A DNA stretch of 64,000 nt, from contig NZ_CANLZM010000001.1 in NCBI RefSeq assembly GCF_947495565.1, positions 310,001 to 374,000 of the forward strand, in the 5' to 3' direction. Of the stretch, positions 1-64,000 are shown piece by piece. Origin of the DNA: an uncultured Pontibacter sp. Lineage in GTDB: Bacteria; Bacteroidota; Bacteroidia; Cytophagales; Hymenobacteraceae. Numbering within the stretch: the first letter of the stretch is position 1; the number at the start of each line of letters is the position of its first letter. Below the pieces are notes generated by a model. The model was not told the DNA's origin and searched no databases. It worked only from the letters and a program-made list of their open reading frames with translations. The position numbers were made by a program, and so were the translations under genes.

Positions 1-292
1 TAACAGTAAGTATGCTGACTTTCTTTACGCCGGCTTTTCCAAAGTATTCATTTATGATATCAGTGGTGATAAACACAATGGGCCAGATGATGACACCGGC
101 AGTCAGGTTAAAGTCCAGTAGCTCGCCGGCGATCGGAATTTGCGCGCCTGGCAAACCAAAGAGCGCCTCCCCGGAAAAAATCTTAACACCGATAAGCTCA
201 GCCAATAAGGCATTGGAAATAAAGATACCGCTGAGCACCAAGAAAAGATTTGTGCGCTTGCGTTGCTGTGTAGCCGTGACTATACTTTCCAT
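1..292 (-). CDS. yhhQ: Queuosine precursor transporter, YhhQ/DUF165 family (3' part cut off by window edge)
   Basis: Reading the minus strand from the ATG at 292 gives 97 codons without a stop before the window ends. The protein starts MESIVTATQQRKR, then has a hydrophobic segment with ISNALLAELIGVKIFS, then DFNLTAGVIIWPIVFITTDIINEYFG. The NLTAGV and TDIINEYFGK blocks are what I know from Bacteroidota members of the VUT/YhhQ family, integral membrane carriers that import queuosine precursors for tRNA wobble modification. Family members usually run to about 220 residues, so more than half is missing. It lies 62 bases downstream of RNase Z on the same strand and may be co-transcribed. Substrate specificity is inferred from the family name only. 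Confidence 0.82.
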   Translation of the reverse strand, partial: MESIVTATQQRKRTNLFLVLSGIFISNALLAELIGVKIFSGEALFGLPGAQIPIAGELLDFNLTAGVIIWPIVFITTDIINEYFGKAGVKKVSILTV

Positions 293-354
293 AGTTCTGG
301 GTTTATACTTTGGCAGTGCCAGTGTGGCGGAAATCTAATAAAGAAAGGTTATAC

Positions 355-1275
355 TTACTGGTCGCAGACGCTAAAAATACTGCCTTCCGTAGCCAGGTCC
401 GTAGCCGCAAAAACCTCCTGCGCTTCCTGCAGTAAAGGTGTCAGGTCTTTGTAGCGTACCGAAAAGTGGCCGATGAGCAGGTGCCGCACTTCAGCGGCTG
501 TGGCTATCTCTGCCGCCTGCCGGGCTGTGCTGTGGTAAGTATAACTGGCACGGTCGCGCAGCTCGTCAGTAAAAGTAGCTTCGTGGTACAGCAGGTCTAC
601 GTGGCGGAGGTAAGGGAGCAGCGATGGCTTGTAGCGGCTGTCGGAGCAGTAGGCGTAGCTGCGGCTGCGCTTGGGCTCCAGGGTTACCTCGCTGTTGCGC
701 ACCAGTATGTTCCCTGCTTCGTCTTTAATGTCTTCGCCCCACTTCAGGCGCACCAGCTGCGGAGGCCGCAGAAAATCAGGTAGTTTATCTTTAATGAGAG
801 GACGCGGCTTCTGCTTTTCACGGAACAAAAAACCGCAGCAGGGCACGCGGTGCTCCATGGGTATGGTGTGCACGGTTATGCTTTTATCCTCGAAAATCTT
901 TCTGTAGCAGGTAGTATCCAGCTCATGAAACACAAGCTTGAAGTTGAGGTTGGTGCCAGAGTACTTAAACTGCAGACTAAGGATTTCGGAGAGGCCGGGA
1001 GGGCCGAAGAGGTGCAGCGGCGATTGGCGGCCCTGCAGGTGCATGGTGGAGATGAGCCCTGCCAGACCGAAGTAATGGTCGCCGTGCAGGTGGCTGATGT
1101 AAATATTGCAAATGCGCTGATGCTTTATCTTGTAAAGCATCAGCTGCATTTGCGTACCTTCTCCGCAATCAATCAGGTGGGGCTGATTGCCAAGTGTAAG
1201 AACCTGGGCGGTATGGTGCCTATTTGCCGAGGGAGTGGCCGACGAACTACCAAGAATTCTGAGTTCGAAATCCAC
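355..1275 (-). CDS. rnz: Ribonuclease Z (tRNA 3' endonuclease)
   Basis: A 306-residue metallo-beta-lactamase-fold protein of normal length for bacterial RNase Z. The N-terminus has the LGSSSATP block, and the zinc motif SHLHGDHYFG puts His62, His64, Asp66 and His67 in place. GLISTMHLQGR and a late HLLIGHFSVRY, with another metal-binding His, also fit. The enzyme cleaves tRNA precursors just after the discriminator base, making the 3' end for CCA addition, and acts as a cytoplasmic dimer. The gene starts 13 bases after the stop of the STAS gene upstream, which suggests one transcript, and is followed by the queuosine-precursor transporter, so two tRNA-related functions sit side by side. Confidence 0.95.
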   Translation of the reverse strand: MDFELRILGSSSATPSANRHHTAQVLTLGNQPHLIDCGEGTQMQLMLYKIKHQRICNIYISHLHGDHYFGLAGLISTMHLQGRQSPLHLFGPPGLSEILSLQFKYSGTNLNFKLVFHELDTTCYRKIFEDKSITVHTIPMEHRVPCCGFLFREKQKPRPLIKDKLPDFLRPPQLVRLKWGEDIKDEAGNILVRNSEVTLEPKRSRSYAYCSDSRYKPSLLPYLRHVDLLYHEATFTDELRDRASYTYHSTARQAAEIATAAEVRHLLIGHFSVRYKDLTPLLQEAQEVFAATDLATEGSIFSVCDQ

Positions 1276-2843: not shown

Positions 2844-4334
2844 TTACCCTGAACTTTCGGAATGAAGCTGCTGCTGTTGCTGCTTTGTGTTATCAGGCCG
2901 GTAACTGATGATGTTCTGAACCATTCCGCCAAAGATGATAAAGTGAAAGGGAAGTACGGCATACCAGTACAAACGGCCCATTAAACCGTAAGGGCGGAAG
3001 GCGGCCAGCTGCTCCAGGTAATTGCCGTCTTTCTCCTCACAGATCCTGAACTGTAGCCACGCCTCGCCGGGCAGTTTCATTTCTGCATAAAGCAGTAAAC
3101 GTTTATGCATTTTATCAGCCACCAGCACGCGCCAGAAATCAATGGTGTCGCCGGCCATTACATCGTTCGGGCTACGCCTGCCGCGCCTAAGCCCAACACC
3201 GCCCACCATTTTATCCATCAATCCGCGTATGCGCCACAGAAAGTCTGTCTTGTACCAGCCACGCTCTCCGCCGATGCTCCAGATGTTGTCCAGTACTTCG
3301 TTGGGGGAGCGGTTAAACTTCAGACGCTGTTTATCGGTCAGCACCCCATGCTCTGGTATTTGTATAAAATCCATATAATTGAGGCGCATGGTGCCGCTTA
3401 CAAGTGCATCTTTCCAGCTGGATATTACTGAGTTTTGCTCAATTCTGGCATAGGCCAAACTTACAGCCTTCTCGTAGGGTAGGCAGTGGTGCGGAATAAC
3501 CTGGTTGATACGTTTGTCTTGTACCACAGCATCGTTACGCAGGCTATCTACCAGGCTTTGCGCTAAAGTATGGTTGGTGCTGGTTACAAAATACAGCCAG
3601 TAGGAGGAGATGCGCGGCGTAAGCACAGGCAAGGTAATGATGTAACGTTTCAGGTGACGCACTTCGGCCAGTTTAAGTAGCATCTGTTTATAGGTCAGCA
3701 CATCGGGGCCGCCAATTTCAAAGCGTTTGCCGTAGACGTCTTCGCGTCCTAACACCTCCGTCAGGTAAAAAAGCACGTCGCGGATGGCGATGGGCTGGCA
3801 ACGGGAGTTCAGCCATTTGGGCGTTACCATAACCGGCAGTTTTTCTACCAGGTCGCGGATAATCTCAAAAGAGGCGCTGCCGGAGCCGATGATAATGGCA
3901 GCCCGGAGCACGGTGAGTTGCGCCTTTGCCGTCTGCAGCACATCTTCAACGTGCCGGCGGGAAGACAGGTGCTTTGACAGGTTTTCAGCATTGGATATGC
4001 CGCTCAGGTAAACTACTTGTCTGGCAGTAGTGGTGTTCAGGTAATTTACAAAGTTTTCAGCAGCCACACTTTCAGACGCGGAGAAATCATCACGGCTAGA
4101 GCCCATGGAGTGTACCAGGTAGTATGCCGCATCAATATCGGTGGGAAGTTGCACAAGTCTGTCTGGGTGCAGCAAATCGCCGCTCACCACCTGCACTTTC
4201 TCTTTCAGGGTCCAAGGCAAATCGAAGCGGCGCGGGTCACGCACTACGCACACCACCTCATACCCCTGCTCCACCAGCAAAGGCAGCAGTCGCTTGCCAA
4301 TATATCCGTTAGCCCCAGTGAGCAGTATTTTCAT
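2844..4334 (-). CDS. SDR-family NAD(P)-binding protein with C-terminal DUF2867-like domain
   Basis: Starting at the ATG at 4334 puts the Rossmann motif at the N-terminus (MKILLTGANGYIGKRLLP), so I reject the 18-residue longer frame. The first 300 residues form an atypical short-chain dehydrogenase domain (YYLVHSMGSS, VVYLSGISN, ACIIG-like strand, GGPDVLTYKQML), close to YbjT-type NmrA-like proteins. The last 170 residues (WYKTDFLWRIRGLMDK, GDTIDFWRVL, MKLPGEAWLQF) match the DUF2867 half often fused to this SDR type in Bacteroidota. The substrate is unknown. The gene is divergent from a cytosine deaminase, and the 150 bases between them hold four copies of the TATACTT/AAGTATA heptamer. Confidence 0.85.
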   Translation of the reverse strand: MKILLTGANGYIGKRLLPLLVEQGYEVVCVVRDPRRFDLPWTLKEKVQVVSGDLLHPDRLVQLPTDIDAAYYLVHSMGSSRDDFSASESVAAENFVNYLNTTTARQVVYLSGISNAENLSKHLSSRRHVEDVLQTAKAQLTVLRAAIIIGSGSASFEIIRDLVEKLPVMVTPKWLNSRCQPIAIRDVLFYLTEVLGREDVYGKRFEIGGPDVLTYKQMLLKLAEVRHLKRYIITLPVLTPRISSYWLYFVTSTNHTLAQSLVDSLRNDAVVQDKRINQVIPHHCLPYEKAVSLAYARIEQNSVISSWKDALVSGTMRLNYMDFIQIPEHGVLTDKQRLKFNRSPNEVLDNIWSIGGERGWYKTDFLWRIRGLMDKMVGGVGLRRGRRSPNDVMAGDTIDFWRVLVADKMHKRLLLYAEMKLPGEAWLQFRICEEKDGNYLEQLAAFRPYGLMGRLYWYAVLPFHFIIFGGMVQNIISYRPDNTKQQQQQLHSESSG

Positions 4335-4484
4335 GGTTTTATACTTCGTGCAAATGCGCTTATACTTTCTGAACAGGTGGAAGGGCATTTAGTTACTTTA
4401 ATTTCTTTTCCTCAACAAGATTTATACTTTGTAACTTAGAGAAAATAGTTCTGTATAAAGCAGGAAGTATAAATTTAGATAACA

Positions 4485-4940: not shown

Positions 4941-6407
4941 CTACAGATGCCCCAGCACCTGGTTCACCTGCTTCTGCCAAAGCTGTTTCTCCAGTATAAC
5001 GGGCGGTGCAGCGCGCTCCATGCAATCTAGGGCGGGGCAGCGCTCACAGGTTTCGTTCACTTTCCGGATTGTGATGGCTGGGTCTTCCAGGAAGTGGAGC
5101 TTGTTACGTAGGTTCTCGTTTAGCAGCAGGCCGATGCTTACCGTGCCGTGGCGGCTCTCGGAGGGCTGCGCCAGCGCCAGCACCAGGTACTCGTTTACAG
5201 AGTTGATATAAGAAGACCGCTGCACACCCACCAGTGACTTGTCGGGATTCTCCGGCTTCTCCAACTCCTGGAACAGCGTGAGCGAGATCCAGCGGCGGCA
5301 GTAGTGCTCGTTCAGGAAAGAGGCGTGCGGGTTGTGCAGCCCGGCCAGGTGCAGCTCTTTGCTAAGTATAAACTTGTCGTGTGCAGGCTTGTGGTGGAAG
5401 CGCAGAAAAAACAGCTGCTTGATGTTAAAAAACTTAGGCAGGAGCGAGGTAAGGCGGTGCAGCAGCGTTTCGGGCGAGGTGTCATACTTCTCCATGAGCT
5501 GCAACAGGCGCTGCGGCTGCCAGGTGTTGAGCTCAAAAAAACCTTGCATGTCCTGCACCAGCCTGTCTTGGTTCAGGAGTAGGGCACCCGCAAAGTATGA
5601 AGCTTTAAAATTATTGAGAACCTCCTCAAAAGAGCCCACCTTAACCCAGGTAGAAGTATAAGGCCGCTCCTGCAGCTGCAGAAACTGGAACCCCAGTTCT
5701 CGCGCCACGGCAAAAGCTTTCTGATGTTCCGTTAGGATGGGGTTGAGCAGCAGGCGCGGATTTTGGCCAGGTATGAACACCGACCGTAACGGGGCCAGCT
5801 CCGGGTGCGCCGAAAAACCATCAAAGCTGGTGCTGATGCCATACTGCTGCAGCAACAGGTCAGCCAGTTCTTCAAATGTTGATGTGGCCTCGGCATCTAA
5901 ATCAAACTGCTCGACAAACCGCTCTGCCTCCAGCTCGATTTCCTCAAAGTAGTTGTCATGGAGCTCCTGGTAAGAGCGGAGCGCCGAAAAATAAAACTGC
6001 TCCACCCGCAGGTCAAAGGCGCGGGAGATTTCCAAAAGTGTGTTCACGAAAGCACTCAGCTTTGCCGGTGCGGTGGCAAACAGATCCAGCACGCGGCTTA
6101 TGTCCAACCCGAAATGCTCCAACGGCAGCTCGGAAAGTATGTTAGACTGCAGCAGTTCGCCCACCGGCTGCAGGCGCTTGCTCAGCTGCAGCGACACTAG
6201 GTAATCATAGGTTACGCCCAGGGCATCGGCAATAATAGCCACTTTGCTCGGCTTTGGGTGCTTTTTGCCTTTCTCTATCTCATTAAGGTAAGATACGGAG
6301 ATGCCGGTTTTACCTGCCAGATCCGTTAGCGAAATGCCTTTGTCTGTTCGCAACTGTTTCACTTTCAGTCCGAAAATCATTCGGATAACGTCTTCCTGCA
6401 GTTTCAT
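4941..6407 (-). CDS. XRE-family regulator with DUF2083 C-terminus (RamB/ScfR-like), likely glyoxylate-shunt regulator
   Basis: A 488-residue regulator. Residues about 10-70 form a Cro/C1-type helix-turn-helix (LRTDKGISLTDLAGKTGISVSYLNEIEKG). The middle has the IrrE/ImmA-like region (FAVARELGFQFLQLQERPY) without an obvious HExxH. The C-terminus carries NETCERCPALDCMERAAPP, the Cys-rich signature of DUF2083 proteins such as Corynebacterium RamB and ScfR, which control acetate and short-chain fatty-acid metabolism. It is divergent from malate synthase and isocitrate lyase, exactly the targets of RamB, and the 163-base gap contains an inverted repeat. The ATG at 6407 is supported by the nearby HTH. 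Its sign of regulation and its effector are not visible. Confidence 0.85.
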   Translation of the reverse strand: MKLQEDVIRMIFGLKVKQLRTDKGISLTDLAGKTGISVSYLNEIEKGKKHPKPSKVAIIADALGVTYDYLVSLQLSKRLQPVGELLQSNILSELPLEHFGLDISRVLDLFATAPAKLSAFVNTLLEISRAFDLRVEQFYFSALRSYQELHDNYFEEIELEAERFVEQFDLDAEATSTFEELADLLLQQYGISTSFDGFSAHPELAPLRSVFIPGQNPRLLLNPILTEHQKAFAVARELGFQFLQLQERPYTSTWVKVGSFEEVLNNFKASYFAGALLLNQDRLVQDMQGFFELNTWQPQRLLQLMEKYDTSPETLLHRLTSLLPKFFNIKQLFFLRFHHKPAHDKFILSKELHLAGLHNPHASFLNEHYCRRWISLTLFQELEKPENPDKSLVGVQRSSYINSVNEYLVLALAQPSESRHGTVSIGLLLNENLRNKLHFLEDPAITIRKVNETCERCPALDCMERAAPPVILEKQLWQKQVNQVLGHL

Positions 6408-6484
6408 GGGCGGGTATAAATCACTATTAATACTTCAAGTAAGGGCTTTTTGCGATAATCTCATAAAAAACGTAAATAATTTAT

Positions 6485-6502
6485 TAGCGAAAATTCGCCA
6501 AA
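6485..6502. promoter_or_regulatory. Candidate operator: near-perfect inverted repeat in the aceBA/regulator divergent promoter
   Basis: The core gcgaaaattcgc (6487-6498) has five-base arms GCGAA/TTCGC around AA. Outer TT and AA pairs extend it to an 18-base palindrome with one mismatched pair. A half-site-like ttcgcg follows at 6512-6517. It lies just upstream of the -33 element proposed for aceB, a natural place for the divergently encoded XRE regulator to bind. The binding itself is inferred. Confidence 0.5.
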
Positions 6503-6508
6503 ATAAAA

Positions 6509-6539: not shown

Positions 6540-6570
6540 AATAAAAGTATAAAACATTAAACTCTGATTT

Positions 6571-8169
6571 ATGATTATCGAAAGCATTATTGAAGTTAAA
6601 GGCAACATGCAACCTGATTATGAGAGTATATTGACTCCGGAAGCACTGGAGTTTCTGGAGATGCTGCACCAGAAATTTGAGCCGCGCCGAAAAGAGCTGC
6701 TGCAGCTTCGGGCGGAGCGCCAGAAAGCCATTGATGCCGGGGAGCCGCTGAACTTCCTGCCGGAGACGGAGGAGATTAAAACAGGCAACTGGAAAGTAGG
6801 GGACATACCTACAGATCTGCAGCTGCGCCGCGTGGAAATTACCGGACCCGTGGACCGCAAAATGGTTATAAATGCGCTGAACTCTGGTGCCAACGTGTTT
6901 ATGGCTGATTTTGAGGATGCCAATTCCCCGACTTGGGAAAACGTGGTGCAGGGGCAGCTTAACCTCCGTGATGCCATTCGCCGGGAAATCGATTTTACAG
7001 TACAGAATGGCAAAACATATCGGCTGAACGATAAAGTGGCTGTACTGAAAGTGCGTCCGCGCGGCTGGCACCTGCCGGAGAAACATGTAACTATTGGAGG
7101 CGAGCAGATTTCCGGCGCTCTGTTCGATTTCGGTTTATACTTTTTCCATAACGCAAGGGAGCTGCTGCATCGCCGCACCGGTCCTTACTTCTACCTGCCC
7201 AAACTGGAGAGCCACCTGGAAGCCCGCCTTTGGAACGATGTATTTGTGGCGGCGCAGCAGGCGTTGGGTATTCCGGTTGGTAGCATTAAGGCAACTGTGC
7301 TCATAGAAACCATTCCCGCCGCTTTCGAAATGGACGAGATTCTGTATGAGCTGCGCGAGCATATTGTAGGCCTGAACGCTGGCCGCTGGGATTATATTTT
7401 CAGTGCCATCAAGAAATTCAGAAACCGACCCGAAGTGCTGTTCCCCGACCGCACGGATGTTACCATGCAAGTACCGTTTATGCAAGCCTATACTTCGCTG
7501 CTGGTAAAAACCTGCCACAACCGCGGCGCACATGCTATGGGCGGTATGGCCGCCTTCATCCCGAACCGCCACAACCCGAAGGTAAACGAAAACGCCTTTG
7601 CCAAGGTGAAAGCCGACAAGGCCTTTGAAGCAAAAAGCGGCTTTGACGGAACCTGGGTAGCGCACCCGGATTTAGTGGCGGTGGCCCGTGAGGAGTTTGA
7701 CAAGGTGCTGGGCGAGAAGCCGCACCAGAAGGAGGTGCTGCGCGAGGATGTGCAGGTAAAGGCTGAGGATCTGACGGACTTCCACATCCCCGGAGGTAAA
7801 ATAACAGAGGCTGGTCTTCGGCTCAACATCAACGTGGGTATTATGTATATCGGCAGCTGGCTATGCGGCACAGGCGCTGCAGCTATCCATAACCTGATGG
7901 AAGATGCCGCCACTGCCGAAATATCACGGGCGCAAGTATGGCAATGGCTGCACCACCCACACACCAAAACCGACGACGGCGCGGAAATAACTGAGGAGCG
8001 CGTGCTGCAGCTGATAAAAGAGGAAACAGAAAACATAAAAGAAGATGTAGGCCTGGTGATGTTCAAGAACTGCCATTATGAAAATGCCTCCCAACTCTTC
8101 TCAGAACTTGTGCTCACCACCTGCTTTGTCGATTTCCTGACGCTGCCTGCTTACAAGTACATCGACTAA
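6571..8169 (+). CDS. aceB: Malate synthase A
   Basis: A 532-residue enzyme, the size of E. coli AceB (533). It condenses glyoxylate and acetyl-CoA to malate in the glyoxylate shunt. Visible landmarks are [67 protein letters not shown] (the metal-binding Glu region), [12 protein letters not shown] and [13 protein letters not shown]. An internal ATG at 6607 (MQPDYESIL) is an equally reasonable start giving 520 residues. The isocitrate lyase gene follows after 42 bases on the same strand, so the two form an aceBA operon, probably controlled by the divergent RamB-like regulator. Confidence 0.96.
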
Positions 8170-8211
8170 TCATCTCCTTAACCAAAGTATAAAATCTCAA
8201 AAACCAAAGCC

Positions 8212-12184: not shown

Positions 12185-12187
12185 TTT

Positions 12188-22618: not shown

Positions 22619-22893
22619 AGAAATCAATTTTAAATATTAAACCTTGTTTCGTTGTTAATTTAACAACTCTAGATATAATATTTAAATATTTTCAATAAAA
22701 AAGATAAGTGGTTAGTAAAAAATAAAATAATAGGTGCGACGATGATAAATTTTAGAACAATTAAGATGTGTACTTGACAAAAGTATAATTGACTAGCATT
22801 GCTGTTATTGAACCTTGCCGCTAGATGAGTTTTTGTAATAAAGTATACTTTGGGCTGCTTGACTGTGAAGCAGCAGAAGGATGATGTAAAAAA
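22619..22893. other. AT-rich intergenic region between the amt promoter and the subtilase terminator
   Basis: No gene was seen. Presumably it contains the amt promoter, read leftward. At 22840-22851 it holds AAAGTATACTTT, a perfect 12-base palindrome made of two overlapping copies of the dispersed heptamer. Confidence 0.5.
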
Positions 22894-45869: not shown

Positions 45870-48800
45870 ATGCGTAAAAAATCTACAAACCGAGCAAGGA
45901 CATGCGGCCTCATTACGGCGGCATGCTTCCTATACTTTTCGGGAGCAGCGCAGGATCAAAACGCCGGTAAGGTGGCATTTGCTGCCAGTACAGGCGTAGT
46001 GGCCCAGAGTACTTCCACAAAGTCGCTGAATGATGTGCTGAAAGACCTGCGCAGCAAGTATGGCATCCAATACTCTTACAAGGCAGATGTAGCGAAAAAC
46101 CTGCAGTTGCAAGTGCCTGCCGGAGTTTCTTCGGAGGCAAACGTAGAGGTGGTGCTGGCCAAAGTGCTGGCTCCAAGTGGCCTCACCTACAAAAAGGTGA
46201 ACAATGTTTACATTATTATTAAAGATGTTGCCCCGGCACCTGCTGTCACTCCTTCGGCTAACAGATCGAGCGCTGTGCAGGAGCAGACTGTACGCGGCAC
46301 GGTAACAGACGGCAGCGGCTCGCCTTTGCCTGGCGTAACAGTGGTTGTAAAGGGCACTACGCGCGGCACTTCTACTGATGCCAGCGGTAACTTTACGCTA
46401 GCCGTACCTGCCAACGCTACGCTGGTGTTAAGCTATATCGGCTTTCAGACAAAAGAGGTTGCAGTAGGCAACCAGGCTACTTTTAACATCTCTTTGCAGA
46501 CAGACGCCAAAGCGTTGGAAGAAGTAGTGGTTATAGGTTATGGTACGCAGAAGAAAAGCGATGTAACAGGTGCTGTAACTTCGGTAACTTCTGAGGATTT
46601 TGTGCAGGGCCAAAACACAACTCCTGAGCAGCTGATTCAGGGTAAAGTGGCCGGTGTGCAGATCACAACAAACGGCGGTGCTCCTGGTTCAGGTAGCCGT
46701 ATCCGTATTCGTGGTGGTGCCTCGCTTACAGCTAGCAACGACCCGCTTATCGTAATAGACGGTGTGCCGGTGGATAACGCGGCTACATCAGGTGCAGCTA
46801 ACCCACTGAATTTCCTGAATCCGAATGACATTGAGTCATTTAACGTTCTTAAGGATGCTTCTGCTACGGCTATCTATGGCTCCCGCGCCTCAAACGGTGT
46901 CATTATCATTACAACCAAAAAAGGCAAAGCCGGCCAGAAATTTAGCGTCAACTTCAGTACGCAAAATTCATTGTCTGTTATAAACGATAAGATTGATGTA
47001 CTTTCTGCTGATGAGTTCCGTGCGGTTGTAAACGAACGCGGTTCTGAAGCTCAGCGTGCACTACTTGGTACTGAAAATACAGATTGGCAGGACCTGATCT
47101 ACAGAAATGCCATTACGACAGATAATAACGTGAGCGTGAGCGGAGCTTATAAGTTCTTGCCATACCGTGTGTCTTTTGGCTACCTGAACCAGGAGGGTGT
47201 TATCAAGACTTCAGAATTCGAAAGATATTCTGGAGGCATCAGCTTGAACCCTACTTTTTTCAATGATCACCTTACAGTTAACCTGAACTACAAAGGAGCT
47301 AAAACAAACAGCCGCTTTGCTGACCAGGGTGCCATCGGTGCCGCAGTAGCATTTGACCCAACGCAACCTGTGCGAGTGGATAACGAGTTTGGCGGTTATT
47401 TTCAGTGGTTAGATGCAAACGGAAGGTATAACCCGCTAGCTACGCGTAACCCGCTTAGCATGCTGGAGCAGCGCCGCGATGTTGGAGACGCTTACAGAAG
47501 CATTGGTAATGTGCAGTTAGATTATAAATTTCACTTCCTGCCTGAACTGCGTGCAAACCTGAACATAGGTTTTGATAGATCAGAAAGCGACGGCTCTACT
47601 GTAACGCGTGCAGATTTTGCACCGGATGCAGTAACAGCCGGCCGCCGCACCCAGTTTGAGCAGACCAAAACCAACGAGCTGTTCGACTTCTACCTGAATT
47701 ATGTAAAGGAGCTGGAAGGGTTTAACAGCCGCATTGATGCAACAGCCGGTTACTCGTTCCAGGATTTTGAGAACGATAGACCGAACTTCGTGCCTACCAA
47801 TGCAGCAGGCGTACCGCTAACAGACCAGGAGCCAGGTTTGCCATTAAACCAGCCATACAAGCTGAAATCATACTTTGGCCGCATCAACTACTCGCTGATG
47901 GACCGTTACCTTTTAACAGCCACCGTGCGTTACGATGGTTCTACCAGATTTAGCGAAGACAACCGTTGGGGTACCTTCCCGGCACTTGCGCTGGCCTGGA
48001 GAATAAATGAGGAGGCCTTCTTGGCAAGCTCCGCAGTAGTTTCTGACATGAAGCTGCGCTTAGGGTTTGGTGTTACCGGCCAGCAGGATATCGGCGAGCG
48101 ATTCTTCCCATACCTGGCGCGTTATTCTTACAGCGATAACACGGCCCAGTATCAGTTAGGTGACGAGTTTTACAACTTGTACCGCCCAGAAGGATATGAC
48201 ACAGGCATTAAGTGGGAGGAAACGCGAACCTGGAACGCAGGCTTGGACTTCGGATTCCTGAACAACCGCATCACAGGTAGCTTAGACTATTTCTTTAAGG
48301 ATACCAAAGACCTTTTAGCCCTGGTAGCAGTGCCTGCGGGTACTAACCTAACCAACGAACTGGTAACGAACGTGGGTAACCTGGAAACGCAAGGTGTGGA
48401 GGCTGTCCTTAACTTTACAGCTATAGACACAGAGAAACTTACCTGGAACATTGGCCTGAACGGTACTTACCAGAACCGTGAAATTACCAGCCTTAGCAAA
48501 GTAGAGAACCCTGATTTTGAAGGATATCCAGAAGGTGGTATACTTGGCGGTACCGGTAACAGAATCCAGATCAACAGTGTGGGCTATGCACCTAATACAT
48601 TCTTTGTGTACAAGCAGGTATACGACAGCAATGGCAAGCCAATTGAAGGTCTGTATGCCGACCTGAATGAGGACGGTGTGATCAATGAGAAAGACAAATA
48701 CCGTTACAAGAACCCGGAGCCAAATGTGTTCTTGGGTATCAACTCAGATGTGCGCTACGGAAACTGGAATCTGAGCTTTGTGGCAAGAGGCAGCTTTGGA

Positions 48801-49157
48801 AATTACATGTATAACAACGTGTACTCCAACCTAGGTGCTTACAGAGCCTTCACTTTCCCTGGATACTTGACAAATGTTTCTACGAACGTGAACGAAACGA
48901 ACTTCCAGGAATTCCAGCTGTTCTCTGATTATTATATGGAGAATGCTTCTTTCCTACGCATGGAGAACATCAGCCTTGGTTACGACTTTGGTCGTCTGTT
49001 TGACGAAACGCTGGCAATCCGCCTGACAGCCAACATGCAGAATGCGTTCGTGATCACAAAATACGACGGTCTGGACCCTGAGATTGCAGGTGGCATAGAC
49101 AATAACTTTTATCCTAGACCACGTGTGTACACGCTTGGCCTGAACATCGGATTCTAA
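45870..49157 (+). CDS. susC: SusC/RagA-type TonB-linked outer-membrane transporter with STN domain
   Basis: 1095 residues. After a signal peptide, an STN/secretin-like domain (about 50-120, LNDVLKDLRSKYGIQYSYKA) marks it as a transducer. Then come a carboxypeptidase-regulatory-like domain (about 140-210, VRGTVTDGSGSPLPGVTVVVKG), a TonB-box/plug (EEVVVIGYGTQKKSDVTGAV, IRIRGGASL) and a 22-strand barrel ending in YTLGLNIGF. With SusD 11 bases downstream it forms the outer-membrane import complex. The GH13 and FecR genes suggest malto-oligosaccharides as substrate. It contains only two exact copies of the dispersed heptamer. Confidence 0.95.
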   Translation: MRKKSTNRARTCGLITAACFLYFSGAAQDQNAGKVAFAASTGVVAQSTSTKSLNDVLKDLRSKYGIQYSYKADVAKNLQLQVPAGVSSEANVEVVLAKVLAPSGLTYKKVNNVYIIIKDVAPAPAVTPSANRSSAVQEQTVRGTVTDGSGSPLPGVTVVVKGTTRGTSTDASGNFTLAVPANATLVLSYIGFQTKEVAVGNQATFNISLQTDAKALEEVVVIGYGTQKKSDVTGAVTSVTSEDFVQGQNTTPEQLIQGKVAGVQITTNGGAPGSGSRIRIRGGASLTASNDPLIVIDGVPVDNAATSGAANPLNFLNPNDIESFNVLKDASATAIYGSRASNGVIIITTKKGKAGQKFSVNFSTQNSLSVINDKIDVLSADEFRAVVNERGSEAQRALLGTENTDWQDLIYRNAITTDNNVSVSGAYKFLPYRVSFGYLNQEGVIKTSEFERYSGGISLNPTFFNDHLTVNLNYKGAKTNSRFADQGAIGAAVAFDPTQPVRVDNEFGGYFQWLDANGRYNPLATRNPLSMLEQRRDVGDAYRSIGNVQLDYKFHFLPELRANLNIGFDRSESDGSTVTRADFAPDAVTAGRRTQFEQTKTNELFDFYLNYVKELEGFNSRIDATAGYSFQDFENDRPNFVPTNAAGVPLTDQEPGLPLNQPYKLKSYFGRINYSLMDRYLLTATVRYDGSTRFSEDNRWGTFPALALAWRINEEAFLASSAVVSDMKLRLGFGVTGQQDIGERFFPYLARYSYSDNTAQYQLGDEFYNLYRPEGYDTGIKWEETRTWNAGLDFGFLNNRITGSLDYFFKDTKDLLALVAVPAGTNLTNELVTNVGNLETQGVEAVLNFTAIDTEKLTWNIGLNGTYQNREITSLSKVENPDFEGYPEGGILGGTGNRIQINSVGYAPNTFFVYKQVYDSNGKPIEGLYADLNEDGVINEKDKYRYKNPEPNVFLGINSDVRYGNWNLSFVARGSFGNYMYNNVYSNLGAYRAFTFPGYLTNVSTNVNETNFQEFQLFSDYYMENASFLRMENISLGYDFGRLFDETLAIRLTANMQNAFVITKYDGLDPEIAGGIDNNFYPRPRVYTLGLNIGF

Positions 49158-49168
49158 ACTACAGAAAG

Positions 49169-50770
49169 ATGAATACAAGATTTTTTAAACATATAGCATT
49201 GGGTGCTGCCTTTACAATAGCGGCCGCCTCATGCGATCATGACCTGGACCTGGAGCCTAAGTATGATGTAGTATCTGGCAACATTTACACAGATTTTAAC
49301 AATTACAAAAACGTATTAGCCAAACTGTATGCGGGTTATGCTGTTACAGGCCAGCAAGGCCCAACAGGTAATGCTGATATCAGTGGTATTGATGAAGGTT
49401 TCTCAAACTACCTGCGTCAGTACTGGCAGGCTCAGGAACTTACCACAGATGAGGCAATCATTGCCTGGAACGACGGTAACCTGCGCGACCTCCACGACAT
49501 GGACTGGACACCTGCCAACGAGTTTTTGAGAGCCCTCTATAACCGAATTTTTTATCAGGTATCCCTTACTAACGAGTTTATCCGCGAAACATCAGACAGC
49601 AAGTTAAGCTCTCGTGGTATTACGGGTGCTAATCTGGAGGAGGCAAAGCGTTTCAGAGCTGAGGCACGCTTCCTGCGCGCCCTGAGCTACTGGCATGCAT
49701 TGGATCTTTACGGTAATGTTCCTTTCGTGACGGAGGAGGATGAGGTAGGGTCAACCTTGCCTGAGCAAATAGCTCGTCCTGAGCTGTTCGCGTATTTAGA
49801 ATCTGAACTGCTCGCGATTGAAAACGAATTGCAAGCGCCAGCGCCAGGCAACTCCAGCGTATACGGCCGTGCCACACAGGCTGCCGCCTGGATGCTTCTG
49901 TCAAAGCTTTACCTGAATGCCGAAGTTTACACAGGTAATGCGCGTTACAATGATGCAGCCACGTATGCCAAAAAAGTTATAGATGCGGGTTACTCGCTGG
50001 AAGAAGATTATGATCACTTGTTCCTGGCTGACAACAACACGTCTCCAGAGATTATCTTCCCGATTACGTTCGATGGATTGCGCACCACTACTTGGGGTGG
50101 CATGACCTACCTGGTACATGCACCTGTAGGAGGCAGCATGCGCGCAGCAGATTTTGGTATAAACGGTGGCTGGGGCGGCTTGCGCACTACACAGGCTGTT
50201 GTAAACCTGTTTAATGATGTGAGCGGCAATACCGATGACCGTGCCAACTTCTGGACCGACGGACAGTCTCTTGAGATTAACGACATCTTTACGTTTACTG
50301 ATGGCTACGCCGTCACCAAATGGAAGAACGTTACCTCTACCGGCCAGGCAGGTTCAGATCCTGCAGGCGACCACCCGGACACAGATTACCCTATGTTCCG
50401 CTTGGCAGATGCTTACTTAATGTATGCTGAAGCTGTAGTAAGAGGTGCCAGCACTGGCAATATGTCTGAAGCTGTAGAGTATGTAAACCGCTTAAGAGAA
50501 AGAGCTTATAACGGCACGTCCGGAAACATCACCAGCGGACAGCTTACGTTAGATTTCATTCTGAATGAGCGAGCACGTGAGTTGATGTGGGAGGCGCACC
50601 GCCGTACCGACCTGATCCGATTCGGCAAGTTTACCGGTGATGCGTACCTGTGGCCATGGAAAGGTGCAGTAAAAGAAGGACGCGGAGTTCAGGAATTCCG
50701 TCGTTTGTTCCCCCTGCCAACCACAGACCTAAACGCTAACCCAAATCTGACGCAAAACTCAGGGTATTAA
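49169..50770 (+). CDS. susD: SusD/RagB-type glycan-binding lipoprotein
   Basis: 533 residues with a signal peptide ending in a lipobox-like AASC (about Cys22). SusD landmarks are present: LRALYNRIFYQVSLTNEFI, RFRAEARFLRALSYWHALDLYGNVPFV, TPR-like helices, RLADAYLMYAEAV and ERARELMWEAHRRTDLIRFGKF. It caps the SusC barrel and captures oligosaccharides at the cell surface. It begins 11 bases after the SusC stop. A 14-base-stem hairpin follows before SusE. Confidence 0.95.
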   Translation: MNTRFFKHIALGAAFTIAAASCDHDLDLEPKYDVVSGNIYTDFNNYKNVLAKLYAGYAVTGQQGPTGNADISGIDEGFSNYLRQYWQAQELTTDEAIIAWNDGNLRDLHDMDWTPANEFLRALYNRIFYQVSLTNEFIRETSDSKLSSRGITGANLEEAKRFRAEARFLRALSYWHALDLYGNVPFVTEEDEVGSTLPEQIARPELFAYLESELLAIENELQAPAPGNSSVYGRATQAAAWMLLSKLYLNAEVYTGNARYNDAATYAKKVIDAGYSLEEDYDHLFLADNNTSPEIIFPITFDGLRTTTWGGMTYLVHAPVGGSMRAADFGINGGWGGLRTTQAVVNLFNDVSGNTDDRANFWTDGQSLEINDIFTFTDGYAVTKWKNVTSTGQAGSDPAGDHPDTDYPMFRLADAYLMYAEAVVRGASTGNMSEAVEYVNRLRERAYNGTSGNITSGQLTLDFILNERARELMWEAHRRTDLIRFGKFTGDAYLWPWKGAVKEGRGVQEFRRLFPLPTTDLNANPNLTQNSGY

Positions 50771-50777
50771 TCTTTAA

Positions 50778-50819
50778 CATCGTTGCCTGCCGGTACAACA
50801 TTACTGGCAGGCAACGATG
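50778..50819 (+). terminator. Intercistronic hairpin between susD and susE
   Basis: A perfect 14-base stem (catcgttgcctgcc / ggcaggcaacgatg) with a 14-base loop, seven bases past the susD stop and 27 bases before the susE ATG. There is no T-tract, so it is more likely an mRNA-stabilising or attenuating structure that lowers SusE relative to SusCD than a full terminator. Confidence 0.65.
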
Positions 50820-50845
50820 ACTTTCAATTTCAAAAATGAATTTAT

Positions 50846-51925
50846 ATGAAAAGCTGGCTAAATAAATCGTTATTATTTTTTGCTGCTTCGCTGGCTCTTA
50901 TGAGCTGTGAGAAAGACGAAGATCGCCTTACTGTTGCCTCAGATGGTAGCTCTACCCTGACAGCCTCTACGACTTCACTTAACTTAAGTCAGGAAACTGC
51001 CCAAGAGGAAGCAGTGACTTTTTCCTGGAGTCCGCTAAGCCTGACATGGAGCAATCCTTCACTTGCCAATAAAAATGCTGCGACCTATGAGATCCAGATT
51101 GACCAAGCCGGTGGTGATTTTACAGATCCAGCAACAGCAGCAGTAGAGGGTAATCTGGAGAAAACATATACGGTAGAGGATTTCAACCGAATACTTGGTA
51201 ACATGGAGTTACAGCCTGAGCAAGAGGCATCTTTGGATATTCGTTTAAAAACTATGCTAGGGGCTAATAAAGAGCCACTGTACTCTAATGTAATCACTGT
51301 AACAGCTACGCCTTACGTTGACCTGAAAGAGTATCCATCTTTGTTTGTTCCTGGTTCATATCAAGGCTGGAGCCCTGAATCTGCACCATTTGTTGCATCG
51401 GTTTCAGATAACAATATTTACAAAGGATACTTCTACTTTCCGGATGCAGTAAACAACTTTAAGTTTACTCCTGAGCGTGACTGGGATGAAGCTCATGGTG
51501 ATGCAGGAGACGGCACAACAGGGAACTTAGTGATAGCAGGTGGAGAAAATATAGCTGTAAATGGTGCAGGCTATTATCTGATTACTGCTAATCTTGTAAA
51601 CAATACTTGGTCTGCTAAAAAGACTGAGTGGGGTGTGACAGGTAGCGCCACACCTAATGGCTGGGCAAGCGAAACAGTAGCTGACCACAATTTAGAGTAT
51701 GATGCTACTGAGATGGTTTGGAAAGCTACGCTGCAACTTTCAGAAGGAGCTGTTAAATTTAGAGCTAACGATGAATGGGAAATCAACTACGGCGATACTG
51801 ACCCTATCACAGGTTTCCTGAAAGAAGGTGGCGCTGATATCATGGTTGCTGAAGCAGGTATGTATGAAATTATTCTGAACCTGAGCGTTGGAGGAAACTA
51901 CCGTTATAAGCTGATTAAACAATAG
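50846..51925 (+). CDS. susE: SusE/SusF-like starch-binding outer-membrane lipoprotein
   Basis: 359 residues with a lipobox (LMSC, Cys about 21). An N-terminal SusE domain (about 25-150, EEAVTFSWSPLSLTWSNPSL, TYEIQIDQAGGDF) precedes two CBM-like beta modules: YPSLFVPGSYQGWSPESAPFV and WGVTGSATPNGWASETVADHNL. These carry the Trp-rich starch-binding pattern of SusE/SusF. Having two modules after the SusE domain fits SusE better than the longer SusF. It is the last gene of the locus, followed by a strong terminator. Confidence 0.9.
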   Translation: MKSWLNKSLLFFAASLALMSCEKDEDRLTVASDGSSTLTASTTSLNLSQETAQEEAVTFSWSPLSLTWSNPSLANKNAATYEIQIDQAGGDFTDPATAAVEGNLEKTYTVEDFNRILGNMELQPEQEASLDIRLKTMLGANKEPLYSNVITVTATPYVDLKEYPSLFVPGSYQGWSPESAPFVASVSDNNIYKGYFYFPDAVNNFKFTPERDWDEAHGDAGDGTTGNLVIAGGENIAVNGAGYYLITANLVNNTWSAKKTEWGVTGSATPNGWASETVADHNLEYDATEMVWKATLQLSEGAVKFRANDEWEINYGDTDPITGFLKEGGADIMVAEAGMYEIILNLSVGGNYRYKLIKQ

Positions 51926-51986
51926 TAAAATCATTACTACGGCTGCCCGTTTTAAGCTTTAGTTAAACAGTTATGCCTTAAACAAA

Positions 51987-52020
51987 AAATACCCCGGCAG
52001 CTAAAACTGCCGGGGTATTT
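51987..52020 (+). terminator. Terminator of the FecR-SusCDE operon
   Basis: A perfect 14-base stem (aaataccccggcag / ctgccggggtattt) with a 6-base loop followed by a T run. It can also serve the convergent M28 peptidase gene (stop at 52042). Confidence 0.9.
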
Positions 52021-52041
52021 TTTTGCTCTTAAAAATAGGGT

Positions 52042-53694
52042 TTACTGCAGAGTACCGAAGCGCGTTCCAAAGAAATCACCTTCATTCCAACGCGGCCTTT
52101 CCTCATCCTGCGCAACCAGGTAACCGATCAGGAAGTTGAGCTGCACATACTTCTTGGCGGCATCAAAGTCAAATATGCCACCCTCAAAGTTATCCTGCGG
52201 TTTGTGGTAATATCTTTCCCGCCATACTTTAACAGTTTCGTCCAGGTTATTTTTACCGTCTATGGTTTTGTTGCCATACTTAATATGCAGTGCCGGCACG
52301 CCCTGTACCACAAAGCTGTACTGGTCGCTGCGTACAAATCGGTTCTGCTCCGGCTCCGGGTCTTCCTCCACATCCAAACCTAGGTAGCTGCTGGCCAGTT
52401 GCACCTCTTCCTGCAGTGAGGAATGGGCTGCCCCTAGCGGTACGACAGAAAGCAGTGGCGCAATAAGCGTGGGCATATCCGTGTTTACGTTGGCCACCAT
52501 CTGCGAGGCAGGCACAGTTGGGAATTTGGCAAAGTAGGCAGAGCCTAGCAGGCCCATTTCCTCGGCAGTAACCATGACGATCAGAATAGAGCGCTTTGGC
52601 TTTTTCTTCACATTAGAGTATATATTGGCAATCTCCAACAGGCTTGCTACGCCAGAGGCATTGTCGTGGGCACCGTTAAAGATAGAATCGCCCTCAATAG
52701 GTTTGCCTACTCCCACATGGTCTAGGTGGGCGCTGTGCACTACGTACTCGTTCTTCAGCACCGGGTCAGAGCCTTCAATTTTACCTATCACATTCTGTGT
52801 CTCAATATCTTCGTAGCGATTGCTGTAGCTGGTTGATGCGCTGAAAGGGAGCGGCATAGAAACCGGTGTACCGCTGCGAAGGCTGGTGGCTACCTGCTGC
52901 AGGTCTTGGCCTGTTGCTGCTATAAATTTCTGCAGCATGTTAAAGTGCACCATCCCCAATAGTTTGATATTCTTGTGATAGCTGCGCGAGGCGGCAACTT
53001 GTCCGTCGGCACCCATTACGCTGGACATGCCACGGGTAGAAAAGTCTGGCAGACCTCCGTTCGGGTTCATGGATGCTACCAGCACACCTATGGCACCGTT
53101 TTCAGCAGCGGTGTTAAGTATGGTTTGAAAATCATTGCTATAAGAAGCCACTGTGGACGGGAAACCCTCCGGGGTGCTGCGCACAATCACTACAATCTTG
53201 CCTTTGGCATCAATGTTAGCGTAGTCGTTGTAGTTCATGTCCGGGGCGCTAATGCCGAAGCCGGCAAAAACCAATGGCGCCTGCAGAGATACCTGCTCTT
53301 CGGCAGCGTTCGGAAAGATGATAAAGTCCTTGCCGTACTCTAGTTGTTCAGTGCCCGCTGTGTCGGCGGATAGCTGCATGGCAGCATCAGGGTTAGTATA
53401 GGCAGTACGTACGCGCACCGTTTGCAGGTAAGTTCCGTTTTCGCCTGCGGGCTGTACTTTTAGCTTTTTAAACTGATCGGTTACATAATCTACTGCCATC
53501 TGAAAGCCTGGCGTACCAGGTTTCCGGCCTAAAAGTTTGTCGTCGGCCAGGTAGGCGACGTGGGCGCTGATAGCAGCAGGTTTTACCTTTTCCATCGCTT
53601 TGGCGACAGGTTTTGGCACATCAGCTGTTTGTGCAAAGGCAGCAGCAGACACCAGGGTAAGGCAGAGGCCTGCAGTTATACTTTTCAGTCTCAT
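52042..53694 (-). CDS. M28-family metallopeptidase with inserted PA domain
   Basis: 550 residues with a signal peptide (to AAFAQ). Residues about 125-270 resemble a protease-associated insert. The M28 core has metal ligands in YVVHSAHLDHVG (His, Asp), GAHDNASGVASLLE (Asp), VTAEEMGLLGS (Glu pair) and a late His in VPALHIKYG. The family comprises secreted or periplasmic aminopeptidases and carboxypeptidases. It is monocistronic, with a convergent starch locus on one side. Substrate preference is not predictable. Confidence 0.92.
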   Translation of the reverse strand: MRLKSITAGLCLTLVSAAAFAQTADVPKPVAKAMEKVKPAAISAHVAYLADDKLLGRKPGTPGFQMAVDYVTDQFKKLKVQPAGENGTYLQTVRVRTAYTNPDAAMQLSADTAGTEQLEYGKDFIIFPNAAEEQVSLQAPLVFAGFGISAPDMNYNDYANIDAKGKIVVIVRSTPEGFPSTVASYSNDFQTILNTAAENGAIGVLVASMNPNGGLPDFSTRGMSSVMGADGQVAASRSYHKNIKLLGMVHFNMLQKFIAATGQDLQQVATSLRSGTPVSMPLPFSASTSYSNRYEDIETQNVIGKIEGSDPVLKNEYVVHSAHLDHVGVGKPIEGDSIFNGAHDNASGVASLLEIANIYSNVKKKPKRSILIVMVTAEEMGLLGSAYFAKFPTVPASQMVANVNTDMPTLIAPLLSVVPLGAAHSSLQEEVQLASSYLGLDVEEDPEPEQNRFVRSDQYSFVVQGVPALHIKYGNKTIDGKNNLDETVKVWRERYYHKPQDNFEGGIFDFDAAKKYVQLNFLIGYLVAQDEERPRWNEGDFFGTRFGTLQ

Positions 53695-53762: not shown

Positions 53763-53801
53763 AAGTATAAATTGTGCCTCCAAAAGTATACTTAAAGTAT
53801 A
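53763..53801. repeat. Cluster of three heptamer copies, one as a perfect palindrome
   Basis: AAGTATA at 53763-53769, the 10-base palindrome AAGTATACTT at 53784-53793 (two overlapping copies) and AAGTATA at 53795-53801. The cluster overlaps the stop codon of the alpha/beta hydrolase gene. Confidence 0.85.
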
Positions 53802-58459: not shown

Positions 58460-59330
58460 GGCGCTGCAGTTTTTTAAAGCTGATGGAGAGCAGCAGCAGT
58501 ACAAACAAAGTAAACGCCACGCTGATGGCATAGCCCTGCGGGATATCGAGCAGGTTGAAGCGTTGGAACTTCTGCACCGCCAGCACCGACACCATGGGGT
58601 GTTGCTGACTGCCGATAAGCAGCGGCACCTCGTAGGCGCCAAGTATAAAAATGAAGTACAGCAGCAGGTTGGGCGCAGCGGTTTTGAGCAGCGTAGGCAC
58701 GGCAATGTGACGTGAAAAGTATACTTTGCCAGCTCCCAGGTTTTCGGATACTTCTTGCAGTTGCCTTAGGTTTTGCTCGCGGTAAATGGCATTGAAAAGC
58801 AGCGTCAGGAAGGGGATGGCCATGAGCGTGTGCGCTAGTATGATGCCGAAGCCAAAGCTATCGTGTACTAAATCAGGGAACTGCTGCAAGCCAGGAATCC
58901 AGTTTAAACTATAGGCCACCCGCGATACTAACCCTGACTTTGTGAATAGCTGGAAAACCAGAAAACCCATAACGACCGCCGGGATGGTAAGCGGCAAGTA
59001 TAATAGGTAACTAAGCGAGCCGTTGCGCAGGCTTTTTTGGAAGTATAAACTTAGAAAAAGGGCAGTAGCGGTGGCTAATGTTATCGCGGTAAACGCAATG
59101 TACAGGCTATACCCCAGCGACTGCAGCAATACGCCCGATGCCAGCACCTGCTGCCAGTGCTGCAGGGTAAAACCGGAACTCAACGCGCCCGTCAGCCCGA
59201 GACTATAAGCCAGACCGTAGAGCAAACCACCGGCCACGGGCGCAGCCGCCAGCAGCAGGAAAAGCAGCCGCAAGTATAATCCGCTGCCTCGTTTAGTTTT
59301 GGTTGATAACCTGTGTTCTAAAATCATCAT
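58452..59330 (-). CDS. ABC transporter permease, first subunit (N-terminal half of a YnjC-like permease)
   Basis: 292 residues with about six membrane segments (LYLRLLFLLLAAAPVAGGLLYG, SLGYSLYIAFTAITLATATALFLSLYF, LLYLPLTIPAVVMGFLVFQ). The EAA loop is QLQEVSENLGAGKVYFSRHIAVPTLLK. Its start overlaps the end of the solute-binding protein gene by 38 bases, and it precedes the second permease with an 8-base overlap. The paired permeases plus ATPase and binding protein give a complete importer. Both ATGs at 59330 and 59327 are usable. Confidence 0.88.
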   Translation of the reverse strand: MMILEHRLSTKTKRGSGLYLRLLFLLLAAAPVAGGLLYGLAYSLGLTGALSSGFTLQHWQQVLASGVLLQSLGYSLYIAFTAITLATATALFLSLYFQKSLRNGSLSYLLYLPLTIPAVVMGFLVFQLFTKSGLVSRVAYSLNWIPGLQQFPDLVHDSFGFGIILAHTLMAIPFLTLLFNAIYREQNLRQLQEVSENLGAGKVYFSRHIAVPTLLKTAAPNLLLYFIFILGAYEVPLLIGSQQHPMVSVLAVQKFQRFNLLDIPQGYAISVAFTLFVLLLLSISFKKLQRHA

Positions 59331-63700: not shown

Positions 63701-63834
63701 GCGTTTTGCGCCGTCAGTTGCATGCCCTCCAGCGGCTCCAGTTTGGGGTTGAGTACGGTTACTTCAATGTCGCCTTGCGCCAATGCCGCGGCCATGGGTA
63801 CAAAATACCCGAGTATGAGGAAAAGTCTTCTCAT
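60778..63834 (-). CDS. TonB-dependent receptor with N-terminal carboxypeptidase-regulatory-like domain (Oar-like)
   Basis: 1018 residues from the ATG at 63834; one codon earlier is a TTG. A signal peptide (to AALAQ) precedes a carboxypeptidase-regulatory-like domain (about 20-105, IEVTVLNPKLEPLEGMQLTAQN). A plug follows with RINMHNAEVSSEMRIAEIRSLPVEGRDV and VSINGANPLFNNYLIDGLDNNEQFLGG, then a large barrel ending in PRQFQFGLRYVF. There is no STN domain, so it is a transporter rather than a signalling receptor, and no SusD follows. It precedes the ABC importer and radical SAM genes on the same strand, suggesting outer-membrane uptake of the same compound. Confidence 0.9.
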   Translation of the reverse strand: MRRLFLILGYFVPMAAALAQGDIEVTVLNPKLEPLEGMQLTAQNAAIGFKTSKSTNSKGVATFSGLNTAGSYTILSAETETYTFTASEPVILRSNFKRTVTLVLPYKREVDLQGVTVYAPSTTRINMHNAEVSSEMRIAEIRSLPVEGRDVTRMLYRLPNVTQATGFFPEAPNVSINGANPLFNNYLIDGLDNNEQFLGGSRFNMPIGFVQNVSVLTNNYSAEFGNTGNGIINITTKSGSNELQGEAFFLTRPGFLDASSPYAQRDLSGNQVKDGFQRYQAGFGVGGPIIKGQTFYYLNYEHTTDLKDNLLRSPALGVNETVRGKNYFNYLSGKLDHYWSDRFHSAIRANVGVVGIGRQAGGLSGGLSFPSAASDQVRNSLNLASTNVYTSGNLTLETSLQYARFRWDYASPDNPGSPDVAVAGPTGETVAVLGHPGYAFESIQHTLQAQQKATWSMGIHTLRAGAEILSTNHELFGGGNPNGSYRVQLTQEQLANISAQNFGLGLSINDIPADALVTNYSVELRPTSFGKRQNMYTLYLEDQLQATDRLNLNLGLRYDYDNLSQGGSGKGDFNNLAPRISFNYQLTPNSTLRGGFGVFYDKVLYAIYSDALQQNNNSEDFKKQIAYFAQQGILPADTDPNRVTFNGNLTVGQSNNAGLPYVYLQGPPAESFAEQRNLFSNERRILNPNGYDNPYTQQFSLGYQLQMATNKLFYVDVVYNRGRNQFRTVNLNAPAAWDYNRSQQEDVARSSAWADETRPLPIYGNYAIIDGERVEGVARSLVMTESEGESNYYAASFNLQKDKTEDRFSYRLIYTLSYLENNTEDINFRAMDANNFEAEWGPSINDRRHVINAIYNYYPLQNLTLTVAALLQSGQPINRIPDASQYSIINRNGSPVLNGSGNPIFTNDLNGDGSAFGDAYVGNSDRQPGEGRNSDRLPWSNTLDASVQYFIPFGSGKENGLEIRADVFNLFDAENLSGYSNNATQSNQIQVGPASSGVLVRRNAAPPRQFQFGLRYVF

Positions 63835-64000
63835 CAAGTATAAATCTGTAAATGAAATCAGGAAATGAAGCGGGAGATTACTTACAGAACGGGCGGCGCG
63901 CGCAGGGATTTGGTAGCTACGACAGCTGATGGTATGGGAGAGAAGCTATAATTTATCTTTGTAGGAGCGACCTGCAGCAGTGACCATAATACATGTGTCA
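63835..64000. other. Right-end intergenic region upstream of the TonB-dependent receptor
   Basis: About 165 bases. A heptamer copy lies at 63837-63843. An exact TATCTTTG box (63954-63961) reads rightward and may belong to a gene outside the window. I see no known riboswitch or RNA fold. Confidence 0.4.

Follow-up and report, generated by a model that had tools for sequence, protein, structure and literature searches.

Why should one seven-letter word recur at many times its chance frequency, on both strands and inside as well as between genes, in the genome of an uncultured Pontibacter? The question is raised by a 64-kb stretch of that genome (C1:310001-374000; contig NZ_CANLZM010000001.1 of assembly GCF_947495565.1), hereafter the window, in which a sequence-only reading had noticed the heptamer AAGTATA (TATACTT on the opposite strand) and had offered three readings of it: an uptake-signal-like word, a nucleoid-protein site or a mutational relic. 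As a putative role the first is best supported; the last fits badly, because all seven positions of the word diverge less than their flanks, by up to about eightfold. Analysis of the genome containing the window (G000, 4.52 Mb) and of its relatives leads us to suggest – with a probability that we put at roughly 0.6 – that AAGTATA is one clade-specific spelling of a self-recognition mark akin to the DNA uptake sequence (DUS), which natural transformation would spread and keep.

Abundance and distribution of the word

AAGTATA occurs 128 times in the window (60 copies on the plus strand and 68 on the minus), where 100 dinucleotide shuffles gave a mean of 7.94 and a maximum of 16. Against an order-2 Markov background it ranks first among 7-mers (12.1 expected), with AAGTAT (208 vs 41.5), AGTATA (166 vs 43.5) and AAGTATG (50 vs 10.3) also in excess. 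The copies counted by eye in the sequence-only reading hold exactly: 25 up to position 13000 (11 plus, 14 minus), 13 between 32 and 37 kb, and two in the SusC/SusD genes, at 45931 and 48539. That reading would have been undone by a Markov model of order 4-5 that predicted the count, or by a want of enrichment elsewhere. The order-5 (maximal) expectation of 109 does lie near the observed value, yet the agreement refutes nothing, because AAGTATA itself inflates the 5- and 6-mers from which that expectation is computed. As to enrichment elsewhere, the genome holds 8095 copies (3975 plus, 4120 minus), one per 559 bp, against 436 (217 and 219) of the reversed word; in the related genome G083 there is one word per 330 bp.

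Codon usage, phase, strand and density were examined in 284 kb of G000, with open reading frames (ORFs) of at least 100 codons taken as predicted genes. When synonymous codons were shuffled within each predicted gene (30 shuffles), 45.6 genic copies were expected and 340 observed, and all six reading phases were enriched, by 3.9 to 23 times the codon-shuffle expectation. Predicted genes hold 1.45 copies per kb, and the DNA between them 3.73. The two orientations are balanced both by strand (277 plus, 252 minus, the replichore location of the stretches being unassigned) and relative to genes (158 sense, 182 antisense), which bears out the non-polar reading given earlier and tells against a polar KOPS- or Chi-like motif. 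Regular spacing was likewise dismissed: gaps follow a nearly exponential distribution (mean 535, sd 584). Those below 100 bp are moderately over-represented (123 vs 89.7 expected), in part through overlapping dyads of two opposed copies, AAGTATACTT, of which there are 14. Pairs within 60 bp number 25 (+-), 23 (++), 20 (--) and 14 (-+), and 14 of the +- pairs are these dyads. As in known DUS and uptake signal sequence (USS) systems, a short word recurs roughly once or more in every kb along both strands, in genic and intergenic DNA.

Dialects across the genus

A scan with the malate synthase encoded in the window identified Pontibacter burrus, P. amylolyticus and P. lucknowensis as the nearest named genomes (79-80% identity), and the assignment to the genus is based on this likeness of proteins. 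Their 21.6-kb malate synthase loci hold AAGTATA only 8, 2 and 3 times, and other spellings abound there: AACTATA in P. burrus (76 copies) and AGGTATA in P. amylolyticus and P. lucknowensis (47 and 35). These alternative spellings of sister species are not visible from the window alone. Words were surveyed in 20 kb around dprA in each of 50 genomes of the genus (12 kb for G095), and the three spellings were also counted genome-wide in all 50.

Thirty-nine of the 50 Pontibacter-group genomes carry about 4,000 to 13,000 copies of one clade-specific spelling. AAGTATA is the dialect of 20 genomes (4114-11818 copies), AACTATA of seven (6094-13168) and AGGTATA of 12 (5748-9303). Three of the seven AAC genomes hold two dialects, with AAGTATA and AACTATA numbering 9116 and 6094 in G058, 7552 and 8118 in G033, and 5110 and 11674 in G018. 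Two AAG genomes outside the AAC clade also contain AACTATA, G043 (3531 copies beside 10614 of AAGTATA) and G103 (1488); this is perhaps an incipient or peregrine second dialect. The remaining 11 genomes are poor in all three words. In eight of them (G109, G113, G013, G073, G095, G125, G028 and G127) none of these words appears in the top lists from 20-60 kb; G131 has a weak AAGTATA signal (2905) and G115 a weak AGGTATA signal (3132), while G002 (L146, L179-L181) iterates a different word, ATATATAA, 53 times in 80 kb where 5.5 are expected.

The dialects follow the species tree, which was built from five proteins encoded next to dprA (50 rows, 2129 columns, a quick method, midpoint root). The seven AAC species group together in one clade, as do the twelve species strong in AGG. 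AAG is scattered over several clades to either side of the root; the eleven species poor in the words are divided between two clades. Eight dialect changes suffice when mixed states are scored as distinct. All three main dialects have A at position 1, TAT at positions 4-6 and A or G at position 7, and T is rare at position 8 (65/1270, 17/251 and 10/463); the first of these figures comes from 664 kb of AAG species, in which A is favoured immediately before the word (516/1270) and the flanks contain little further signal.

Eight codon-aligned genes show re-spelling in place. Opposite AAGTATA sites of AAG species, AGGTATA stands in 17.9% of 2725 site pairs with the AGG clade and in 8.2% of 2011 pairs with word-less species; conversely, AAGTATA stands opposite AGGTATA sites of AGG species in 17.1% of 2848 AAG pairs and 6.2% of 1202 word-less pairs. 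The AACTATA sites of AAC species are mostly new, facing AAGTATA in 2.5% of 2116 pairs and AACTATA in 7.1%.

Beyond the genus AAGTATA fades. Among 200 genomes of the family, those of other genera have at most about 2.5 times as many copies of it as of the reversed word (highest in genus g3), and among 395 genomes of the phylum it is enriched in G000 alone, all others staying at or below about 1.7 times. Genus g4 has a word of its own: ACCTAGG(G) is iterated in G004 and G015 (L197, L205, L218) at about 9-17 times expectation per 20-kb stretch, 72 copies of ACCTAGG against 3.7 expected when the three stretches are pooled; it is missing from the top words of one 20-kb stretch each of G010 and G020. 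T at position 8 is rare after these words too (4/90 after ATATATA in G002, 2/72 in g4). Because both differ from the main dialects in tolerating other letters at position 1 and in having palindromic cores, the common frame is firm for the three main dialects only. In genus g2, a 20-kb stretch of G001 (L195) contains CGCATGCG 12 times against 0.4 expected, possibly a HIP-like palindrome; the 20 kb that follow (L199) do not have it in their top list and show AACGCTA there instead.

In the one literature collection that we searched, we found no mention of the whole word AAGTATA and, among titles and the openings of abstracts, no report of uptake sequences in Bacteroidota or Pontibacter.

Conservation at homologous sites

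Much of the site work concerns a single genomic neighbourhood, that around dprA. Between G123 and G107 (155 kb aligned, 91.5% identical) AAGTATA is unchanged at 304 of 368 sites (82.6%), compared with 989 of 1828 (54.1%) for anagram controls, so the conservation in relatives that the sequence-only reading had suggested checking is indeed found. Between G123 and G081 the figures are 103/186 and 209/1074. The suspected core AAGTATR also stands: in the G123/G107 comparison AAGTATG is kept at 85 of 107 sites, much like AAGTATA, and unlike AGGTATA and AACTATA (51% of 39 and 47% of 34).

The footprint is sharp and 7-8 bp long, mismatch per column being 0.012-0.049 at positions 1-7, 0.058 at position 8 and 0.06-0.14 in the flanks. 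We counted 16 one-step losses (and two two-step losses) of AAGTATA where genome-average rates predict 55.7, and non-identical homologues of word sites differ by more letters than those of control words. Turnover of word sites is clearly low.

Conservation is strongest for, though not confined to, a species' own dialect. In within-dialect pairs, each of which was counted in both directions and some of which share a species, 67-68% of own-word sites are conserved and 28-34% of control sites, and foreign words are mostly conserved at or below control level. In AAG species AAGTATA is kept at 191/286 sites and AAGTATG at 116/171, against 6/20 for AACTATA, 8/40 for AGGTATA and 1881/6272 for controls. 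In AAC species the counts are 306/460 for AACTATA, 0/19 for AGGTATA and 2554/9037 for controls; in AGG species they are 264/388 for AGGTATA, 2/18 for AACTATA and 2358/6892 for controls. In word-less species AAGTATA is kept at control level (4/16; control 1052/4086).

Competence genes and possible decay of the word

Riemerella anatipestifer, another member of the Bacteroidota, is naturally transformable, and one study (PMC8459023) reports that ComEC, DprA and a periplasmic helix-hairpin-helix (HHH) protein are essential to the process, together with proteins that lack homology to known transformation machinery. In Pontibacter comEC, dprA and a comEA-like HHH gene of about 315 residues are all intact in 48 of the 50 genomes; competence genes are a feature of DUS and USS systems as well. 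Both dprA and comEC are broken in G087 and G046 and intact in the other 48 (G119 has a shorter comEC frame of 561 aa, without a stop), and the HHH gene is broken in G087 alone. PF07075, which is also needed in Riemerella, is intact in all 50 genomes including G087 and G046 and serves for that reason as an intact control only. In G087 dprA is interrupted within its matched pieces by three stops and one frameshift. No such lesion occurs in twelve further matched ORFs of the locus; a thirteenth, opposite the 878-residue gene, has two. G095 and G033 each have a second, lower-scoring DprA-like match, with open frames of 334 and 322 aa.

G087 is an AAG species with 5476 copies of the word in 5.46 Mb. 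Its excess of one-letter variants amounts to 0.89 per exact copy, against 0.32-0.52 in five species with intact genes (G123 0.34, G107 0.33, G081 0.32, G049 0.50, G000 0.52). For variants at the core positions 4-6, G087 has 383 where 308 are expected; the corresponding figures are 217/195 in G123, 196/186 in G107, 103/92 in G081 and 145/135 in G049. An accumulation of decayed copies in G087, whose comEC, dprA and comEA-like genes are all broken, is supported but not proven.

A probable uptake word: proposed mechanism and objections

Uptake sequences are thought to be kept by preferential uptake combined with recombination, and we favour a process of this kind for AAGTATA. With some 8000 sites, all phases affected and the own spelling conserved most, drive is a better account than selection on single sites. 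Riemerella shows that Bacteroidota are able to transform with ComEC, DprA, an HHH protein and surface proteins of unknown kind (PMC8459023), and on these grounds together we read the word as a putative uptake watermark. A surface or periplasmic DNA receptor would read the frame A-NN-TAT-R, rarely followed by T, with a specificity at positions 2 and 3 that would differ between clades; fragments carrying the own word would be preferentially taken up, and homologous recombination would restore lost copies and fix new ones. The machine would be pilus-independent, and its known relative would be the Riemerella transformation system. In its fullest form, which from sequence evidence we rate somewhat short of even, the proposal is that sequence-specific, pilus-independent uptake operates in Pontibacter through a receptor for A-NN-TAT-R, and that changes at positions 2 and 3 gave rise to at least three dialects (AAG, AAC and AGG), to which ATATATA in G002 may add a fourth and ACCTAGG, from a sister genus, a fifth, and which act as sexual barriers between clades.

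A number of results weigh against an uptake word, and the first concern its machinery. Known DUS and USS systems use type IV pili. With the PF00437 profile we found no full T2SSE/PilB/PilT ATPase in the 50 genomes, 27-31 first-look candidates, not always all, having been scored per genome: the best matches cover about 40-65 model positions and three exceed the family cut-off, none of them a full ATPase. A type IV pilus of the known kind, with its pilin receptor, is for this reason unlikely in the genus, and we set that route aside. Nor was a DNA receptor found. At the eleven DUF5689 (PF18942) loci inspected (L225 and ten others, from matches in 22 of the 50 genomes), proteins of about 410-450 residues adjoin ORFs that by eye are SusD- or SusC-like, the other inspected matches are pieces of proteins of about 1,100-1,300 residues, and none is a clear counterpart of a Riemerella-type surface protein.

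The objections extend to the distribution of the word. All 11 word-poor genomes have intact dprA, comEC and HHH genes, from which it follows that competence genes alone do not make the word; these genomes must differ in something else, probably the putative receptor. G071, too, has intact competence genes, yet the lowest copy number among AAG genomes (4114). Separate, terminator-like inverted pairs of AAGTATA are not enriched among pairs within 60 bp in the 284 kb, and DNA not shared with the sister species is no poorer in the word than shared DNA (2.55 vs 2.49 per kb, in 10 kb only).

Further objections come from conservation and decay. Polarised one-step gains are not elevated (2 vs 6.7 expected). 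AAGTATA and AAGTATG are conserved above control in AAC species (90/176 and 22/45) and in AGG species (30/64 and 26/44), and in word-less species the same holds, in small numbers, for AACTATA (6/12), AGGTATA (10/24) and AAGTATG (10/26). Intact G000 also shows core-position relics (416 vs 343 expected). Of the words common to G123 and G081, G087 keeps 37/72 (control 66/123), a comparison that is confounded by rooting because G087 lies outside both reference species; the intact outgroup G049 keeps just 15/32 (control 14/44). Words common to G123 and G049 are kept above control in G087 (13/21; control 13/35), and in G081 at 15/18 (control 14/35). At the dprA locus, a small sample, G087 keeps 7 of 10 words (control 25/59), with no decay visible. 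G046, again a small sample, is not significantly decayed (19/25 kept; control 42/67); its sister G105 keeps 28/33 (control 50/88).

Alternative explanations

The sharp, conserved footprint of 7-8 bp would also suit a site bound by a nucleoid protein, or by some other protein of the chromosome, with a specificity that shifted from clade to clade, as would the greater density of the word between predicted genes. This explanation would, however, need strong selection on each of about 8000 sites, it has to accommodate spacing that is near random but for the moderate excess of short gaps, and it leaves the excess of relics in G087 unexplained; we consider it unlikely.

Known Chi words are short, non-palindromic and tied to recombination, and they are polar or much rarer than the word described here, whose density in G000 and G083 is far above theirs. 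A Chi-like hotspot – a word read on single-stranded DNA by a nuclease of the AddAB/RecBCD type, the clades differing as the nuclease changed – would share with AAGTATA a non-palindromic form of 7-8 bp, a genome-wide spread and a spelling that varies by lineage; that Chi sequences vary between species is stated in PMC3630211. The Pontibacter word differs in lacking strand polarity, and such a hotspot gives no reason to expect surplus decayed copies where comEC, dprA and HHH genes are broken. It is therefore another improbable candidate.

The density of the word resembles that of HIP1, an iterated element, and methylation of DNA coupled to mismatch repair might be imagined to make or keep it. 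According to Elhai 2015 (PMC4390886), HIP words reach high frequency and in some cyanobacteria alternate words replace HIP1, each with its own methyltransferase; the lineage-wise replacement is the likeness, and the difference is that HIP words are palindromic and accompany specific methyltransferases. AAGTATA, AACTATA and AGGTATA are not palindromes. The sole methyltransferase family searched, PF01555, is patchy (31 of 50 genomes) and was not found in strongly word-rich genomes such as G083, G097, G117, G119 and G123, which makes a cognate enzyme of that family doubtful. In AAG and AAC species most one-letter neighbours of the word reach or exceed their expected counts; a few are depleted in AGG species. 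We regard a HIP1-like origin as more doubtful still.

A functionless mutational or repair bias that continually creates the word would account for its presence in every phase and in intergenic DNA, yet it is very improbable in the face of conservation that exceeds that of control words and is strongest for the own dialect, of lower divergence at all seven positions, and of the lack of any burst of one-step gains.

Relation to known uptake systems

The USS of Pasteurellaceae is likewise an iterated word, believed to owe its persistence to biased uptake with recombination; it is a different word in a different phylum, served by a pilus-based machine. From the DUS of Neisseriaceae, which measure 10-12 bp, the Pontibacter word differs in length (7-8 bp), in phylum, and in the failure to find either enriched separate inverted pairs or a full type IV pilus ATPase. 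Among the likenesses, Frye et al. 2013 (PMC3630211) describe a short word that recurs thousands of times, dialects that agree with the core-genome tree and, in S. muelleri, two dialects and overlapping dyads in one genome, which compares with G058, G033, G018 and the dyad described above. Riemerella shares with Pontibacter its phylum and its ComEC, DprA and HHH genes; the available text of PMC8459023 mentions no uptake word, and no clear counterpart of its surface protein emerged among the DUF5689 matches inspected.

Should the word prove to direct uptake, uptake sequences would have arisen once more, in a phylum and with a machine unlike those of the two proteobacterial cases. Re-spelling clade by clade would make the evolution of bacterial sexual barriers directly readable, with the two-dialect genomes G058, G033, G018 and G043 standing in between. 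From its dialect one could foretell which DNA is able to transform a given genome, and the word would offer a way of tracing the DNA receptor in the outer membrane of Bacteroidota.

Features of the window

The arrangements of the word within the window that deserve record, together with the gene used as anchor, are as follows.

281..356: three copies of AAGTATA within 76 bp (281, 304 and 350), all on the minus strand
4340..4471: cluster of four copies (4340 minus, 4361 minus, 4423 minus, 4465 plus) around the start of the minus-strand ORF 2844-4388
6571..8169, plus strand: malate synthase gene, used as anchor in the search for named relatives (80% identity with Pontibacter burrus)
22841..22850: overlapping dyad AAGTATACTT, two opposed copies
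48546..53676: longest word-free stretch of the window (5.1 kb), with SusD, the end of SusC and adjoining genes
53763..53801: four copies within 39 bp (53763 plus, 53784 plus, 53787 minus, 53795 plus), with a dyad at 53784-53793
58717..58726: overlapping dyad AAGTATACTT, within the ABC-transporter permease ORF 58452-59330

The cluster at 53763..53801 lies in the gap between two minus-strand ORFs and extends into the end of ORF 53792-54721. The region 45870-53676, comprising the SusC/SusD genes and their neighbours, is almost without AAGTATA, a scarcity that may reflect either recent acquisition or protein constraint. Outside the window, contig C6 of G023 carries two pairs of identical family hits 74,337 bases apart, which suggests a large duplicated segment.

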